A stretch of 64,000 bases of DNA from an uncultured Pelagibacteraceae bacterium (GTDB lineage Bacteria; Pseudomonadota; Alphaproteobacteria; Pelagibacterales; Pelagibacteraceae). Positions 28,942-35,407 of the stretch are shown here, piece by piece (the stretch's first letter is position 1; the number at the start of each line of letters is the position of its first letter). Location: the NCBI GenBank assembly GCA_902588895.1, contig CACIRC010000001.1, positions 205,948 to 269,947 of the forward strand. The letters run 5' to 3'. The translations under genes and the position numbers were made by a program. The notes beneath the pieces are model-generated. The model was not told the DNA's origin. It was given only the letters and a program-made list of their open reading frames with translations, and searched no databases.

Positions 28942-31014
28942 ATGTTTAAAGTATATAAGAAGGAAATTGAAGTAGCGGGAAAGAAGATAAGTTTAGAAAC
29001 AGGTAAAGTAGCAAGACAGGCAGACGGTGCAATAATCGCAACATGTGGAGAGACCGTTGTTTTAGCAACAGTAGTGGGAGCAAAAAAAGTAAATCCTGAT
29101 ATGGATTACTTTCCATTATCTGTAAATTACCAAGAAAAATATTATGCAGCTGGAAAAATTCCAGGTGGATATTTTAAAAGAGAAGCAAGACCAACTGAGA
29201 GTGAAACATTAATCTCTAGATTAATTGACAGACCAATCAGACCTTTGTTTCCAGATGAATTTAAAAATGAAGTACAGTTGTTACCAACTGTAATTTCCTA
29301 TGACAAAGAAAATGAGCCAGATATTTTATCAATCACTGCTTCATCAGCAGCATTAGCCATATCAGGAATGCCATTTATGGGTCCTGTAGGAGCTTCAAGG
29401 GTTGGATTTATTGATGGAAAATATGTTTTAAACCCATCTAAAGCAGAATTAGAAAAATCTAAATTAGATTTAGTTGTAGCGGGTACAAAAGATGCTGTGC
29501 TTATGGTTGAGTCTGAAGCAAATGGTTTAACAGAAGAAGAAATGTTAAATGCAGTTAAATTTGGTCACGAAGGTTTTGTTCCAGTGATTGAAATGATTGA
29601 GGAACTTGCAAAAGAATGTAGAAAACCAGAGTGGACAGTTGAAAAAAAAGATTTATCTGAAGTTAAGAAAAAACTTGAGGAAACTTTTACAGAAGATCTT
29701 AAGAAAGCTTTTGCAACAAGAGACAAACAAGATAGATCAAATCAAATTTCAGAGATTACTGATAAAGCTAAAAAGCTTTATGAAGAAGATGAAAACTACA
29801 CTGATCTTGATGTTAACAGTCAGTTAAAAAATCTTGAAAAATCAATTGTTAGAACTGATATTCTAAAAAATAAAAATAGAATTGATGGTCGAGGTTTATC
29901 AGATGTAAGACCTATCGAATGTGAAGTTGGTGTTTTACCAAGAGCACATGGTTCTGCATTGTTTACTAGAGGAGAAACACAAGCAATTGTTGTTGCAACT
30001 TTAGGAACATCTGATGATGAACAAAGAATTGAAAGTTTAGATGGATTGCAAAGAGAACGATTTATGCTTCACTATAACTTTCCTCCTTTTTCAGTTGGAG
30101 AAACTGGAAGAATTGGAACTGGTAGAAGAGAAATCGGACATGGTAAACTAGCATGGAGAGCAATCAATTCTTCATTGCCTACAAAAGAAGCATTTCCATA
30201 TACTTTTAGAGTAGTTTCAGAGATTACTGAATCTAATGGTTCTTCTTCAATGGCTACTGTTTGTGGAACTTCTTTAGCATTAATGGATGCAGGAGTACCA
30301 ATAAAAGAGCCAGTTGCAGGTATTGCGATGGGATTAATTAAGGAAGGTGATGATTTCAGCGTCCTTTCAGATATTTTAGGTGATGAAGATCACTTAGGCG
30401 ATATGGACTTTAAAGTTGCTGGAACTAAAGATGGAATTACTTCTCTTCAAATGGATATCAAAATTACAGGTATTACTTTTGAAATTATGGAGCAGGCATT
30501 GAGCCAAGCTAAAGACGGAAGAGTTCATATCTTAGGAGAAATGAATAAAGCATTGTCAGCTTCAAGATCTGATGTTGGAAAACATACTCCAAAAATGGAA
30601 CAAGTTAATGTTGATAAAAAAGATATTGCAGCTGTGATTGGAAAAGGTGGTGCAACAATTAGAGAGATAGTTGAAAAATCAGGTGCGAAAGTAGATGTAA
30701 ATGATGAAGGTGTAGTAACAGTTGCTGCGCCAGATGAAGAGTCTAGAAATATCGCAATGCAAATGATCAAAGACATCACTGCAAAAGCTGAATTAAATAA
30801 AATTTATTCAGGTAAAGTAATGAAGATTATGGAGTTTGGTGCATTTGTTAATTTCTTAGGAAAACAAGATGGACTTGTTCATATCTCAGAACTTGCAGAT
30901 AAAAGAGTAGCTAAAGTTACTGATGTTGTTAAAGAAGGCGATGAAGTAAAAGTTAAAGTGATTGGTTTCGATAGAGGTAAAGTTAAACTATCTATGAAAC
31001 AAGCTGCTGAATAA
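28942..31014 (+). CDS. pnp: polyribonucleotide nucleotidyltransferase (PNPase)
   Basis: A 690-residue phosphorolytic 3'-5' exoribonuclease and degradosome component. Two RNase PH domains are visible: the first includes [20 protein letters not shown] and [12 protein letters not shown]; the second includes [20 protein letters not shown] and the catalytic region [20 protein letters not shown] near 480-500. KH ([20 protein letters not shown]) and S1 ([18 protein letters not shown]) follow, and the chain stops soon after S1. A strong terminator follows. Confidence 0.98.
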
Positions 31015-31038
31015 TTAATAGTTTAAATTAAAATTCTA

Positions 31039-31071
31039 AACCCCTGGAATGAAAGTTCTGGGGGTTTTTTT
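31039..31071 (+). terminator. intrinsic terminator after pnp
   Basis: An 11-bp stem AACCCCTGGAA/TTCTGGGGGTT (two G-T wobbles), a 6-base loop and a seven-T run. It closes the nusA-pnp operon. It overlaps the end of the convergent acetyltransferase gene. Confidence 0.88.
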
Positions 31072-31720
31072 ATTCAAAATATAATCCAGAAATATCTGCA
31101 ACCATATCAGTACTTTTTTTATCGATTAATTTAAAACCACAAGTTTGATATAGCTCAATTAATTTTTTTTGAGATTGATCTTTAGTTCTGTTTTTAAATT
31201 CAGAGTTATCAATCTTTTTTAATTTATCATCATCATACAGACGATTATTAAATTGAAGTGGAATAGCATTCAAAAATGCAAAATTAGCATCACGCTTACA
31301 ATCGTTTAGAAGTGCCTGAATTAATAATTTGCCAATATTTTTCCCTCTATAATTTTTATCTACTTTAAGTATATGCAGGTAAATAAAATTAGCACTCATT
31401 TGCATTAATTCTTCTTTATCATAATTAAATATTTTTCCTATTTTGGGGGTAACTCTTTTATAATCTAAATCAAAATAACTTATTAAAGTTGCAGTATCAC
31501 CATCAATGCTATCTAGTACTTCGTAAATTGGAACGTCAGAGGTTTCAATATCAAAAAAATAGGCATCTAATTCACCAACAGAAAAATAGTCTTCTTTTTT
31601 TTCGTTATAAACCATGGCTTCTGCTCTAATAGCATCATAATTATTCTGAAAATCATCAGTGGTAGTTGATTTTCGATATTTGAAATCGATCGAATCAACT
31701 ATATCGTGCTCAAAATTCAT
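31070..31720 (-). CDS. GNAT-family N-acetyltransferase-like protein, substrate unknown
   Basis: A 216-residue protein. YLHILKVDKNYRGKNIGKLLIQALL (about residues 113-137; core YRGKNIG) matches GNAT motif A, the acetyl-CoA pyrophosphate loop, and LIELYQTCGFKLI near 187 matches the C-terminal GNAT motif. The first ~100 residues are an unusual acidic extension. It is the last gene of an accessory minus-strand block and lies 91 bases downstream of the GIY-YIG gene. No antitoxin-sized ribbon-helix-helix partner adjoins, so a toxin role is not supported. The acceptor is unknown. Confidence 0.65.
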   Translation of the reverse strand: MNFEHDIVDSIDFKYRKSTTTDDFQNNYDAIRAEAMVYNEKKEDYFSVGELDAYFFDIETSDVPIYEVLDSIDGDTATLISYFDLDYKRVTPKIGKIFNYDKEELMQMSANFIYLHILKVDKNYRGKNIGKLLIQALLNDCKRDANFAFLNAIPLQFNNRLYDDDKLKKIDNSEFKNRTKDQSQKKLIELYQTCGFKLIDKKSTDMVADISGLYFE

Positions 31721-31765
31721 ATTAAAAGATTTAGCTTACAATGTAATAATTAACATTTAAATGCT

Positions 31766-31801
31766 CAATAAAATTTTATTGGAGGGGGGTTTAACCCCTC
31801 C
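31766..31801 (-). terminator. hairpin after the GIY-YIG gene
   Basis: On the minus strand GGAGGGG and CCCCTCC (31781-31787 and 31795-31801) form a G/C-only stem, immediately followed by the perfect palindrome CAATAAAATTTTATTG (31766-31781). The T content after the stem is moderate, so termination is probable but not certain. Confidence 0.55.
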
Positions 31802-31811
31802 ATATACTATA

Positions 31812-32528
31812 TTAGTTTGAAGACCTCCCATTAATTGCATTAAATGGTGGAAGAGCTCCTTTTTCACCTACATATTTGGTAATATGAAATCCTTCCCATT
31901 TTCTCCTTTCATCATCAGATATTCCATTCATTACCGAATACCTAACTTCATCGAAAGACATCGTTTCATCTCTTAAATGTTCTTTTATCCTTCTTGACAG
32001 GTTATTAGTTTCACCAATGTATAAGATTTCATTATCTAATACACATTGATAAATACCAGGGGCTGTTACCAAACTTTTTAATTCATTAGTTTTAAATTCA
32101 AAACTAGGAACTAAAGGTAAGTACCAAAGCTTCAATTCATCATCAAATTCGAGAAATATCCTTCTTTCATTTCTTGATAATTGAGTCAGCCTTTTGAGCT
32201 TAGGTATTTGATTAACAACTGTTGTTGTTCCACTTAAAGAAACTCCAGGTTTATTTTGACTAATAATAAAAGTGCAGTTTTCTTGGCTATCTTGTTCATT
32301 ATTAAGTTCTAAATATACTCTTAAAGCATCAACACCGTTTAACCCATCTTCAATTGATAAATAACAATGACTGTATTTATCAATTTCAAGTGCTGTTCTA
32401 GCACTTGAATTAAAATAGATTGTTGCTTCTCTAAGTGTTACAGATGGTTTATCCATTAGATAATGACTTTGTTTTTGAAGTCTTTTTAACTTTCTGGATT
32501 GTCCATTCATACTTATGAGTTGTGGCAT
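31812..32528 (-). CDS. GIY-YIG endonuclease-domain protein with unknown N-terminal domain
   Basis: A 238-residue protein. The C-terminal ~85 residues are a GIY-YIG domain: APGIYQCVLDNEILYIGETNNLSRRIKEHL (about 152-181) holds both tyrosines, the Arg and the His of the fold, and a later Glu (RKWEGFHITKY) fits the metal site. Such domains cut DNA. The N-terminal ~150 residues (VTLREATIYFNSSARTALEI, RRIFLEFDDELKLWYLPL) are not recognised and may be a specificity domain. The start overlaps the stop of the 114-residue gene by 1 base, so the two are made together. Confidence 0.75.
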   Translation of the reverse strand: MPQLISMNGQSRKLKRLQKQSHYLMDKPSVTLREATIYFNSSARTALEIDKYSHCYLSIEDGLNGVDALRVYLELNNEQDSQENCTFIISQNKPGVSLSGTTTVVNQIPKLKRLTQLSRNERRIFLEFDDELKLWYLPLVPSFEFKTNELKSLVTAPGIYQCVLDNEILYIGETNNLSRRIKEHLRDETMSFDEVRYSVMNGISDDERRKWEGFHITKYVGEKGALPPFNAINGRSSN

Positions 32529-32872
32529 TAGTTTAACTCCTTTCTTCTGATGATTGTTGCTTTGAAGTTGACTAGAACTTGTGGTTCTAAATTAACTATG
32601 TCAGATACATAGTCTACAAAGTTCCCTGTTAGCATTACTTCAGGGGTATCAATACGGATCATTCTGGAACAGACATCTCCATATTTGTCAGCAATTTCAT
32701 GAACTTCGTCATAAAATTTCTGTAGTTCAGCAGCTCGCCATAAGTGATCCTCTTCTACCTTTCGTTGGTTTGCTACTGCATGTTTAACAACAAGAATATT
32801 GCCATCCTCGTTGGTTATTGTTTGTGCACCTATCTCTTCGATAGGCACACCTTTCTCACATTTGTAAGTCAT
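32528..32872 (-). CDS. hypothetical protein coupled to the GIY-YIG gene
   Basis: A 114-residue acidic, soluble-looking protein with no signal peptide or membrane segment. I do not recognise a family. Most striking are a helical middle (EEDHLWRAAELQKFYDEVHE) and a C-terminal strand-rich part (VLVNFKATIIRRKELN). Its bases look less AT-rich than flanking core genes, suggesting transfer. It is translationally coupled (1-base overlap) to the GIY-YIG protein, so it may be a subunit, regulator or immunity partner; this is inference. The 124-base gap before it is full of inverted repeats. Confidence 0.6.
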   Translation of the reverse strand: MTYKCEKGVPIEEIGAQTITNEDGNILVVKHAVANQRKVEEDHLWRAAELQKFYDEVHEIADKYGDVCSRMIRIDTPEVMLTGNFVDYVSDIVNLEPQVLVNFKATIIRRKELN

Positions 32873-32898
32873 AAATGACTCCTTTATTTAATGGGCTT

Positions 32899-32967
32899 GC
32901 AACTTAAAAAATTGTAAGGTAATAAAACCTTGTATCTACAATTTTAAAAGGCCTCTAATTAAGTTGC
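32899..32967 (-). other. nested inverted repeats, candidate structured RNA leader or terminator
   Basis: Three stems nest here: GCAACTTAA/TTAAGTTGC (32899-32907 with 32959-32967), AAAATTGTA/TACAATTTT (32908-32916 with 32937-32945), and AAGGT/ACCTT (32916-32920 with 32927-32931, sharing one base). AAGGCC at 32948-32953 can alternatively pair with GGCCTT further on (about 32985-32990). The region lies between the HTH gene and the 114-residue gene on the minus strand, so it would be the 3' end of one or the leader of the other. Confidence 0.5.
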
Positions 32968-32996
32968 TAAGCATTTTATTTATTGGCCTTAATTCT

Positions 32997-34271
32997 TTAA
33001 TTATCATTTTCATTATTATTCTTTTTTGTTTCGTCAATTATCTTTTCAGATCCATATAACTGAACAGTTTTACCAGTTTCTTTAGAAAACATTCTAGAAA
33101 CTGCTTCTTCAAATGTTTTTGATTTTCCATAAATAATTTTAAAATCTTCAGAGTCTAAATAATTTTTTGGGACACGATTATCACTCTGTACTTCTTTTAA
33201 AACTTTAGAATATGACCCATTATAATATTTTCCAAAAAGATATTCCTCAGTTTCTTCAGGTACTCCATAAATAATATCAGCTGTTTCTTTTTCTATTATC
33301 GTTTGAAGTTTATTAGGATGATACATGATATCAATTTCCTCTGATGAAATTATAAAAATTGAGTAATTCATTAAGACAGGGGTCAACCTATAATTTTCAT
33401 CACTTTCAGGCATAAATATTTTTGGCATATCCCCTGGTTCTGGATTTTCGATATATGATTCTTCTTTAGGATAATAAATATCGTGTAAGAAAGGTTTTTC
33501 TTCATTAGTTAACATATATTTGTTGTATAAAAATTCTGGATAAGGCCAGTATGTTGTATATTCATAATTAGTTCCATAAAGATACAAAGGATTTATTTTT
33601 TTATTATCTTTATGCAATTCATTTTCATTACATAAATATTCCAGCTCATTTTCTAAATCATCAAACTCATAATCTCCTACCCAACCATAACCTTTTTTTA
33701 GCATTTGGATGCAATAATCTAAGTTACTTAAATTTTTTAATTCATCACTTGTTTTCAGTGCGTTAGAGGAGCTAAAATTTTGATTTGTAACTATTTCCAA
33801 AGCATTTTGTTGATTAGATGCATAATTATCAATTAAGTTAAATAATTGCCCAATTCCTTTTTCTTGATTACGTGAAAGGTCTTCAGGATTATAATCAAAC
33901 AATATTATTCTTTTATTTGATTTTGAAATTAAATTTTTAATTTGCTTTGAATTTTCAATTATGAACGGTCTATTAAAAGCATTGTTCATAAAAGGAACTT
34001 CACTTTTATTATCTTTTAGTTTTTCAGAAATTTCATTTTTTTCTATTAGGTCTTCTTGAGATATACCTAAAAATTCACTTATTAATTTAATACTTTTGTC
34101 AGAAAACTTATTATTTTTTTCCATTCGCTGAATAGTTTTGTAGTGAGGCAATTCTTTTTCTCTTTTTTGTTTTTCTAAATAAACTTTGAGATTTTGGAAA
34201 AAACTGTCTCTAGTTTTGTATCCAGCCTTAGTTCTTGCTTTTACTAATTGTTTTCCTGAGTAATTTTTCAT
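32997..34271 (-). CDS. large HTH protein of unknown function, possible island regulator
   Basis: A 424-residue protein. The first ~80 residues look like an XRE-type helix-turn-helix variant (QLVKARTKAGYKTRDSFFQ, HYKTIQRMEKNN, KLISEFLGISQEDLIEKN). The rest is unrecognised: a strand-like IILFDYNPEDLS near 122, a segment rich in Tyr/Trp/Pro (YWPYPEFLYNKYML near 246), NYSIFIISSEEIDIMYHP near 307, and a charged tail. It is much larger than a plain repressor, so it likely senses something or has an enzymatic domain. Inverted GGACAT/ATGTCC repeats lie just upstream, suggesting autoregulation. A possible promoter (TTGTTT-N16-TATATA) would give a nearly leaderless mRNA. Confidence 0.55.
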   Translation of the reverse strand: MKNYSGKQLVKARTKAGYKTRDSFFQNLKVYLEKQKREKELPHYKTIQRMEKNNKFSDKSIKLISEFLGISQEDLIEKNEISEKLKDNKSEVPFMNNAFNRPFIIENSKQIKNLISKSNKRIILFDYNPEDLSRNQEKGIGQLFNLIDNYASNQQNALEIVTNQNFSSSNALKTSDELKNLSNLDYCIQMLKKGYGWVGDYEFDDLENELEYLCNENELHKDNKKINPLYLYGTNYEYTTYWPYPEFLYNKYMLTNEEKPFLHDIYYPKEESYIENPEPGDMPKIFMPESDENYRLTPVLMNYSIFIISSEEIDIMYHPNKLQTIIEKETADIIYGVPEETEEYLFGKYYNGSYSKVLKEVQSDNRVPKNYLDSEDFKIIYGKSKTFEEAVSRMFSKETGKTVQLYGSEKIIDETKKNNNENDN

Positions 34272-34316
34272 ATAATTTTTATATAGTTATCAATTGGTCA
34301 AAAACAAGAAATTAAT

Positions 34317-34368
34317 GTGGACATATTAATAGACATTATTAATGTCCATATTGTAATTATAAGTGTCC
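34317..34368 (-). promoter_or_regulatory. putative operator of the HTH gene
   Basis: GTGGACAT (34317-34324) faces ATGTCC (34342-34347), with AGACAT between them and a further GTGTCC at 34363-34368. The inverted GGACAT/ATGTCC pair is 46 bases upstream of the HTH gene start. Position and symmetry fit an autoregulatory operator; not proven. Confidence 0.45.
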
Positions 34369-34416
34369 AAAAGAAAAATATTTAACTAAAATTAACTAAA
34401 TTTCATTGATTTTGAT

Positions 34417-34597
34417 GCTATCTAATAGTGAAACTTTACTAAACGTGTACCTATTAATGGTCCCTTATCTACTAAGGGTACTTTATTAATTTCGTTAGTA
34501 TTTACGTAGTTTTTGGTAATCTTATCTAATAGTGTAACTTTAGTCGAAGTTCTTACACTAATAGTGCAGGTTTACTTTCTATAAGGGATACTTTAGT
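34417..34597 (-). repeat. five degenerate ~24-bp direct repeats (iteron-like)
   Basis: In the 350-base gap between fabI and the HTH gene, five copies occur at 34417-34440, 34464-34487, 34521-34544, 34552-34576 and 34575-34597. On the minus strand the shared core resembles TAAAGTTTCACTATTAG followed by ATAAG. Spacing is irregular (about 23-57 bases start to start). The gap codes for no convincing protein. The repeats could bind the HTH protein or mark an integration or replication element. Confidence 0.6.
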
Positions 34598-34621
34598 AAA
34601 AAACCCTGATTTTACTGGTTT

Positions 34622-35407
34622 TTAGGTAATATTCTTAGGATCTGGCATCCCAACCTTGTTATATCCAGCATCTACGTAGTGAATTTCTCCAGTAACTCCG
34701 TTTGCAAGGTCACTTAATAGATATAACGCTGAATTTCCAACATCATGGATATCCACATTTCTTTTCAGAAAAGAATGATCTTCATTCCATTTATAAAGGA
34801 ATTTTGCGTCTCCAATTGCAGAGGCAGCCAATGTCTTGATAGGTCCTGCACTTATAGCATTTACTCTCATGCCTTTAGCACCCAAATCTCTAGCTAAATA
34901 TTTAACACTGGCCTCTAAAGCTGATTTACAAACACCCATTACGTTATAATTTGGAATTGCTTTCGTAGACTCATAAGTTAAAGTTAATAAGCTTCCACCT
35001 TGTTTCATTACTTTTGAAGCTTCTTTTGCTACTTCAGTAAATGAAAAGCATGAAATTAACATACTTCTTAAAAAGTTTTCTCTAGTCGTATTTAAATATT
35101 CACCTGATAACTCTGATTTATCAGAGAAAGCAACTGCATGAACTACAAAATCAATTTCACCCCATTGGGATTTAATATCTTCAAATAGTTTTACAACTTC
35201 TTCTTTTTTTTCAACATCACAACTAAATGTAACATTTGAATTTAATTTTTCTGCTAAAGGAACTACTCTTTTTTTTAAAGCATCACCTAAATAAGTAAAT
35301 GCTAGTTCCGCTCCAGCTTCAGCAAGTTTTTGAGATATGCCCCAGGCAATAGATCTTTCATTAGCGACACCCATGATTAATCCTTTTTTACCTTTCATCA
35401 AACTCAT
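34622..35407 (-). CDS. fabI: enoyl-[acyl-carrier-protein] reductase (NADH)
   Basis: A 261-residue SDR-fold enzyme completing each round of fatty-acid elongation. The N-terminal KGLIMGVANERSIAWGISQKL is the FabI variant of the cofactor motif. The catalytic Tyr-x6-Lys is in PNYNVMGVCKSALEASV near 150-166, and INAISAGPIKTLAASAIGD near 188 is typical. It follows fabB by 3 bases. The gene order irr-fabA-fabB-fabI is also that of many rhizobia. No strong terminator follows; the repeat array starts soon after. Confidence 0.96.
   Translation of the reverse strand: MSLMKGKKGLIMGVANERSIAWGISQKLAEAGAELAFTYLGDALKKRVVPLAEKLNSNVTFSCDVEKKEEVVKLFEDIKSQWGEIDFVVHAVAFSDKSELSGEYLNTTRENFLRSMLISCFSFTEVAKEASKVMKQGGSLLTLTYESTKAIPNYNVMGVCKSALEASVKYLARDLGAKGMRVNAISAGPIKTLAASAIGDAKFLYKWNEDHSFLKRNVDIHDVGNSALYLLSDLANGVTGEIHYVDAGYNKVGMPDPKNIT

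Follow-up and report, generated by a model that had tools for sequence, protein, structure and literature searches.

A recurring unit of an exchanged HTH-type gene and a conserved GIY-YIG nuclease in Pelagibacteraceae, possibly part of a conflict system

Background

Do the genes that lie between pnp and fabI in a Pelagibacteraceae genome form a working unit, or are they chance neighbours? The question is raised by a stretch of 64,000 nucleotides from an uncultured Pelagibacteraceae bacterium (GenBank assembly GCA_902588895.1, contig CACIRC010000001.1, positions 205,948 to 269,947; G000:C1:205948-269947 in our numbering), which is called the window here; the genome it comes from is in 36 contigs and 79.6% complete. 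A first-pass annotation had listed four same-strand open reading frames (ORFs) with pnp and fabI on either side, as the ORF list and the sequence bear out, with all four on the minus strand, and had taken them for a possible defence or selfish module. That idea holds for three of them, the genes for a predicted helix-turn-helix (HTH) protein, called X below, a small protein and a predicted GIY-YIG nuclease. We see about an even chance that the unit they make up serves a conflict system, most likely one directed against phages, as a nuclease under tight control with exchangeable sensors. Its parts in the window are:

32997-34271, minus strand: X, the variable, replaced gene, an ORF for a predicted HTH protein of 424 residues (helical N-terminus in the AlphaFold model; related X in locus L299)
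32873-32996, minus strand: leader between X and the small gene, with a possible pseudoknot
32528-32872, minus strand: small protein of 114 residues (90% identical in locus L021)
31812-32528, minus strand: GIY-YIG nuclease of 238 residues with an N-terminal domain without known family (Pfam E 8.5e-6, above the cut-off)

Results

Recurrence of the unit

The nearest named relative at pnp-fabI, AG-390-G11 (L021), is a single-cell genome from an uncultured member of the Pelagibacteraceae, and its contig is identical with G659:C15; this agrees with reading the window as SAR11. In L021 a 387-residue HTH-type gene stands with a 114-residue and a 238-residue gene, the nuclease being 92% identical to that of the window. 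Searching with a nuclease profile, we found full-length relatives in 8 of 399 genomes of the genus and 11 of 257 of the order, which makes 16 genomes jointly since the draws overlap. In the genus search 76 of the 399 genomes matched at 1e-7, and 68 of them were set aside as weak, with a best match of E 7.5e-9 or higher, mainly over the GIY-YIG stretch and mostly in frames of about 610-630 residues that we read as UvrC-like. Among 385 genomes of the class, searched with an earlier profile of four rows, the window's own genome alone was matched, and among 200 genomes of the phylum there was, besides it, only G1082 from another class, whose relative of 213 residues stands alone near transporter-like genes.

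The order X, leader, small gene, nuclease was found in 13 Pelagibacteraceae genomes at four unrelated sites, the names of flanking and cargo genes here and below being our reading of the sequences unless a library match is given:

pnp-fabI site: window and L021, full modules
tolC-like/umuDC-like site, flanked opposite by alaS/recA if the contig extends that far: L279, L280, L293, L294, L295 and L296
argG/photolyase-like region: L125, L281, L282 and L297, each module followed by a PD-(D/E)XK gene
mnmE-mnmG site, in another genus: L299, full module

The small gene matches its own profile in 11 of the 13 modules, 7 of which had built that profile, and was assigned from position and size in L293 and L299. 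Of the two X profiles, one or the other is matched by X in 8 of 13 modules; in L279 and L280 the contig ends within X. We regard the recurrence of the arrangement as firm. The three genes recur together patchily at several unrelated sites, as the idea of a defence or selfish module had supposed; the defence role itself is something we infer.

Variants of the arrangement were also seen. The PD-(D/E)XK gene behind four modules has a Pfam match of E 3.9e-8 in L125, and Cas4 models match. Three genus genomes (L124, L298 at pnp-fabI, and L300) have the nuclease without X or small gene, and that of L124 (genome G004) sits between NurA-like and HerA-like genes. The island in question (3202-11242 of L124) adjoins his-like genes and holds in a row a defence-type ATPase, which matches many defence models, the NurA-like gene, the sister GIY-YIG gene and the HerA-like gene. 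A small related ORF of 66-89 residues lies just after the nuclease in L293, L294 and L295, or 3 of the 6 tolC-site modules, perhaps as an additional part that is not always present. In L296 (genome G872) X is split over two frames, possibly a sign of decay in this copy or else of a sequencing error.

Replacement of X

Comparing the DNA of pairs of loci, with positions counted from the nuclease start, we found X replaced between similar flanks, a result that we regard as firm. The window and L021 are 85% identical up to -1853 and again 87% identical from -327, with nothing alike between, so that X, its promoter and the leader all differ; blastp gave no significant match between the two X proteins (best E 0.35). 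In L281 and L282, flanks of 93-96% identity enclose an unlike stretch from -1313 to -391 with different X (279 and 333 residues), and 68 nt of the leader are retained. The pair L293 and L294 has flanks of 95% and 99% identity and differs in X, the leader and nearly all of the small gene (small proteins 22% identical), while L295 and L296, 68-86% identical outside, differ in X and keep the leader and both later genes (79.5%). Across the exchange the nuclease is kept, with an identity of 92% in window and L021, 99% in L281 and L282, 100% in L293 and L294 and 78% in L295 and L296. In L125 and L297 the X are 20% identical (E 0.002), the leader is unlike in sequence and the later genes are 85% identical.

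The X of the window is closest to that of L299 (27% over 396 residues, E 5e-22) and the X of L021 to that of L279 (34%, E 4e-46). The nuclease tree groups full modules by site and the likeness of X ignores site; the solo nuclease that L298 has at pnp-fabI is placed beside that of L124, away from the modules of its site. A forced alignment of all X gives identities of 9-37%, and their remote kinship is possible.

The nuclease and the small protein

The first-pass annotation had named the 238-residue protein a nuclease, and by sequence it belongs to the GIY-YIG nuclease superfamily. Tyr160, Arg180, Glu212 and Asn230, the active-site residues of this superfamily, are invariant in 17 of 17 relatives. 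The best solved relative by profile is T4 endonuclease II (E 4e-4), and the AlphaFold model has a mean pLDDT of 34. For the N-terminal domain there was no match above the cut-off in Pfam, PHROGs, PADLOC or NCBIfam. For the pair of window and L021, simple counting of substitutions gives a dN/dS of 0.056 for the nuclease gene and 0.14 for the small gene, which indicates purifying selection on the nuclease.

The best Pfam match of the small protein has E 0.059, below the cut-off, and a profile search of the Protein Data Bank (PDB) gave one meaningless match (E 0.87). Its gene had been thought translationally coupled to that of the nuclease, which is plausible because the stop codon and the ATG share one base (TAATG).

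The leader before the small gene

X and the small gene are 94-204 nt apart in the 13 modules, and this leader likely folds. A search for pseudoknots whose strands follow one another as a-b-a'-b', b' being close to the start codon, returned two stems in the window:

32985-32990 with 32948-32953: stem a of the possible pseudoknot in the window leader
32959-32972 with 32895-32907: stem b of the same possible pseudoknot; a hairpin lies between stems a and b

Pseudoknot-like pairing has a mean z of -3.77 in the 13 leaders versus 0.03 in 22 controls, which were other intergenic regions from the same loci (Mann-Whitney p 7e-6; such combined values, except for the Fisher test over 10 leaders below, treat related leaders as separate). 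Singly, 11 of 13 leaders reach p <= ~0.05, L279 (0.28) and L293 (0.13) do not, and the closely related L281 and L282 have different best arrangements. Under earlier search settings 7 of 13 leaders had p<0.05 and L021 was missed (p 0.88). With stem b fixed, the crossing stem a beats shuffles in 7 of 13 leaders (p<0.05), and the Fisher test of stem a, b fixed, over 10 leaders gives 8e-5; in the window the crossing stem a is not significant alone (p 0.36).

Between L125 and L297, 6 of 12 b pairs are changed on both sides and none is broken, and 1 of 6 a pairs is changed on both sides. There is one double change among 7 b pairs in L279 and L294; in L295 and L296 there is one one-sided change among 10 b pairs, and the a stem is identical. 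Leaders with different stem sequences keep the order a-b-a'-b', though the stem-exchange test of this, in which L279 and L294 were included without stem a, is partly circular as stems were picked for pairing. In 12 leaders b' ends 4-23 nt upstream of the start codon. Folded as single strands, seven leaders have z of -0.56 to -6.13, L279 and L281 being without excess stability. Rfam gave two sub-threshold matches at 30900-34700 of the window, none in the leader, and no match in L125, L297 or L299. We read the leader as a probable cis-acting element on translation.

X and its promoter

The tentative assignment of X to HTH proteins draws on the N-terminus of its AlphaFold model (a helical domain at residues 1-77 with pLDDT about 58-77, the rest mostly <50), on weak matches to PHROG repressors (E 0.0024 and 0.0047) and on weak HTH_3/HTH_19 matches in two relatives (E 0.0013 and 0.011, below the cut-off). 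The best Pfam match of the window X is nSTAND3 (E 0.02, below the cut-off), and a PDB profile search gave no match.

Upstream of X stands one further feature:

34299-34371, no strand assigned: operator-like block before X, from the alignment to the X promoter of L299, with the palindrome GACATTAATAATGTC at 34332-34346

The X promoters of the window and L299, which belong to different genera and sites, have this block of about 73 nt in common. Their alignment scores 58; the highest of 1000 shuffles, which preserve base composition only, scored 48, and nine other X promoters scored 19-34. The palindrome GACATTNATAATGTC of the block is found at one place in the window genome at <=1 mismatch and once in the L299 locus at no mismatch. 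The shared block agrees with an autoregulator that takes its operator along, and X likely regulates itself.

The pnp-fabI site and its other contents

The remaining features of the interval and its flanks in the window are:

28942-31014, plus strand: pnp, left flank
31070-31720, minus strand: GNAT acetyltransferase gene, 216 residues (Pfam E 3e-6, above the cut-off), a neighbour judged to lie outside the unit
34422-34595, minus strand: five motif copies between fabI and X, kept in L021 and left out of the general unit
34622-35407, minus strand: fabI, right flank

The pnp terminator that had been noted before is seen at about 31040-31072. In the genus, pnp is present in 167 of 201 genomes, and for comparison 100 other loci were taken from 150 listed pnp places. 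Both pnp and fabI are present in 99 of these 100, at a spacing of 41 to 2,658 bp; it is 3,610 bp in the window and 2,871 bp in L021. Gaps of at least 150 bp were scanned for ORFs. The cargo varies by genome and includes, by our reading, methyltransferases, a rhodanese, MsrB, a superoxide dismutase and a SulP transporter. In four genomes (L054, L057, L058 and L079) a protein of 742-744 residues with a signal-like start fills the interval. The site is one of variable cargo in SAR11, and shared position alone is therefore no evidence of neighbours working together.

The synteny scan that the first-pass annotation had proposed found the pair of 114 and 238 residues in 0 of 99 comparison intervals, so the genes are neither fixed at this locus nor, given their recurrence elsewhere, scattered singles, the two outcomes that it had named as speaking against a module. 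The leader, the operator-like block and the repeated replacement of X come in addition to what that annotation had noted. What did not stand is the fourth member. The GNAT gene is rejected because it is absent from L021, the one other whole unit at pnp-fabI; it has no relative among the interval proteins that were clustered, and was unsearched elsewhere.

L298 (genome G892) holds a whole fabI and, at 491 to 67 bp before the solo GIY-YIG gene, a further 425 bp that repeat the 3' part of fabI with 87% likeness to the window's; the partial copy is a trace of insertion by recombination at pnp-fabI.

The motif between fabI and X, TAAAGTNNCACTATTAG, is 17 bp long and has two exact copies, the sole exact ones in the window's own genome, and three with 2-3 mismatches. 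As an operator of X it was rejected because the copies stay in L021 while X is replaced, and by eye the motif was unseen in the other X upstream regions listed. The matches listed in a scan of viral contigs for the motif were scattered, and this line was dropped.

Discussion

The reading as a conflict system is put forward because a constant effector is combined with an exchanged regulator that has an operator-like block, a folded leader and patchy occurrence at several sites, and because a sister nuclease lies in a HerA/NurA island. It also counts in its favour that defence nucleases of the GIY-YIG type with sensing parts, SNIPE and CMoRE, are known (PMC13190303, PMC12923530). X would bind DNA and regulate its own promoter at an operator travelling along with it, and its part beyond the HTH would sense a fast-changing trigger, probably derived from phages. 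The conserved effector would consist of the GIY-YIG nuclease and the small protein, joined in some copies by the Cas4-like nuclease. Its synthesis would be held down both by X and by the folding of the leader, which lies immediately upstream of the small gene's ribosome site. Once X encounters its trigger, the nuclease would be made or set free and would cut invading or own DNA. A change of specificity would come about by recombination of a new X cassette between the conserved flanks, and the unit as a whole would be carried at variable chromosomal sites. The arrangement, the replacement of X, the catalytic residues, the selection on the nuclease, the shared promoter block and the excess of leader pairing are features of the sequences; sensing, repression, nuclease activity, leader function and the phage target are what we infer from them.

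Several observations weigh against this interpretation. PADLOC names no system for the unit, and no relatives of the nuclease or X were found in phage records or of the nuclease in plasmid records (the small protein was unsearched in both, and distant kin could be missed), so there is no direct link to phages; pattern scans of viral contigs for all three proteins also confirmed nothing, with the same proviso for distant relatives. The X of five modules (L280, L293, L295, L297 and L299) match neither X profile and are assigned by position. Blastp links that of L299 to the window (E 5e-22) and that of L297 to L282 (E 5e-9), has only marginal links for L293 (E 0.001) and L295 (E 0.002), and the X of L280 is an 89-residue end piece. 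Some X promoters have no clear operator, none being found in L125. The second tyrosine of the nuclease motif (YIG) is kept in the window and in 8 of 17 relatives in all, and is Arg, Glu or Asn in the other 9, so that nuclease activity could differ or be lost in some. Diversifying selection of another kind on the gene could also account for the exchange of X.

The comparison with known systems gives likenesses in parts. The UzuA model of Uzume (PADLOC PDLC03975) matches the GIY-YIG stretch of the window protein (E 7.5e-7, residues 147-195 of both), but the match covers 49 of 277 model positions and is seen in 2 of 8 relatives; Uzume, known here from the PADLOC model, is thus not matched over its whole model, which is a further point against our interpretation. 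In SNIPE, too, a fast-changing part is combined with a conserved GIY-YIG nuclease (PMC13190303), but as one membrane protein with DUF4041, whereas here the changing part is a separate HTH gene; Pfam did not match DUF4041 in the four window proteins. CMoRE, or PD-T4-3, is a GIY-YIG nuclease in phage defence (PMC12923530), a single protein with an N-terminal GIYxY-YIG nuclease domain and a C-terminal sensing domain. In the window the domain is C-terminal, the motif is GIYQC without a third tyrosine there, and several genes are involved. Type III toxin-antitoxin units (ToxIN) have a pseudoknot RNA before a nuclease gene (PMC5772629, PMC5086642), but the RNA is in repeats and the toxin is an endoribonuclease. 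In the unit here the leader is a single copy, the small gene precedes that of the GIY-YIG enzyme, and an HTH gene stands in front; among the 20 listed of 24 direct-repeat families, none lies within 32873-32996, and Pfam, NCBIfam and PADLOC gave no ToxN-like match for the window proteins. In timPR a pseudoknot near the ribosome site is thought to control toxin translation (PMC11228461), but there the parts are a membrane toxin and an antisense RNA, with no nuclease or HTH gene. In Caulobacter, loss of XRE factors raises GIY-YIG transcripts and a phage XRE factor lowers them (PMC10688885), but the passages seen describe no linked unit, leader or regulator replacement. As the first-pass annotation had held, no known system was named for the window proteins by Pfam, NCBIfam, PHROGs or PADLOC, and among the matches listed in literature searches on Uzume, SAR11 defence, GIY-YIG anti-phage proteins, pseudoknots and type III toxin-antitoxin, with subscription journals mostly uncovered, no such unit was present. 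The unit is apparently undescribed.

Other explanations share part of this evidence. A toxin-antitoxin or addiction unit, with the nuclease and small protein as toxin and X, the leader or both as control, would persist by stabilising itself, and X would diversify to escape cross-control. The position of the nuclease behind an HTH gene and a folded leader would suit it, as would the RNA pseudoknot that gates toxin translation in timPR (PMC11228461); but there are three protein genes, the replaced one is large (279-489 residues where complete), and nothing in Pfam, NCBIfam or PADLOC matched a toxin-antitoxin system, so that we consider it unlikely, though ahead of the explanations that follow. 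The leader RNA could instead be a working partner, in a complex with the small protein and nuclease in which it inhibits or guides the nuclease. Such a role would agree with the order of the stems being kept through differing sequences, by the partly circular test, and with the joint change of leader and small gene in L293 and L294; yet in 12 leaders stem b lies close to the start codon, as would suit an element that acts on translation in cis, the 68 nt kept in L281 and L282 stay while X changes, and no repeat or spacer-like part was seen, which leaves it improbable.

We give a similarly low standing to a selfish homing unit, whose GIY-YIG enzyme would cut empty or different alleles and spread its neighbourhood, X replacement being a by-product of repair. 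The free-standing GIY-YIG gene at fixed sites and the solo nuclease of L298 beside its partial fabI copy are what one would expect of it, but homing needs no HTH gene, small partner or leader, and in four pairs the replaced stretch leaves the nuclease gene itself unchanged. GIY-YIG and Cas4-like enzymes serve repair and recombination too, and a housekeeping role in DNA repair, recombination or DNA uptake, with X an ordinary regulator, would accord with that and with the six modules near umuDC-like genes. Occurrence is patchy, however, at 8 of 399 and 11 of 257 genomes, and X has been replaced repeatedly; both speak against such a role, which we think no more plausible than homing.

SAR11 bacteria belong to the most abundant marine cells; their genomes are very small and are known to carry few defence systems, while phage pressure on them is heavy. 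If the unit is a conflict-system nuclease with exchangeable sensors, a unit whose sensor is exchanged at fixed sites would be a testable candidate for phage resistance in SAR11. The sensor gene would be exchanged with its promoter and in some pairs with the leader, and some of the turnover of genes at pnp-fabI and similar sites would be explained. The nuclease profile, the small partner and the pseudoknot-like leader would then serve as signatures in the search for more such units.

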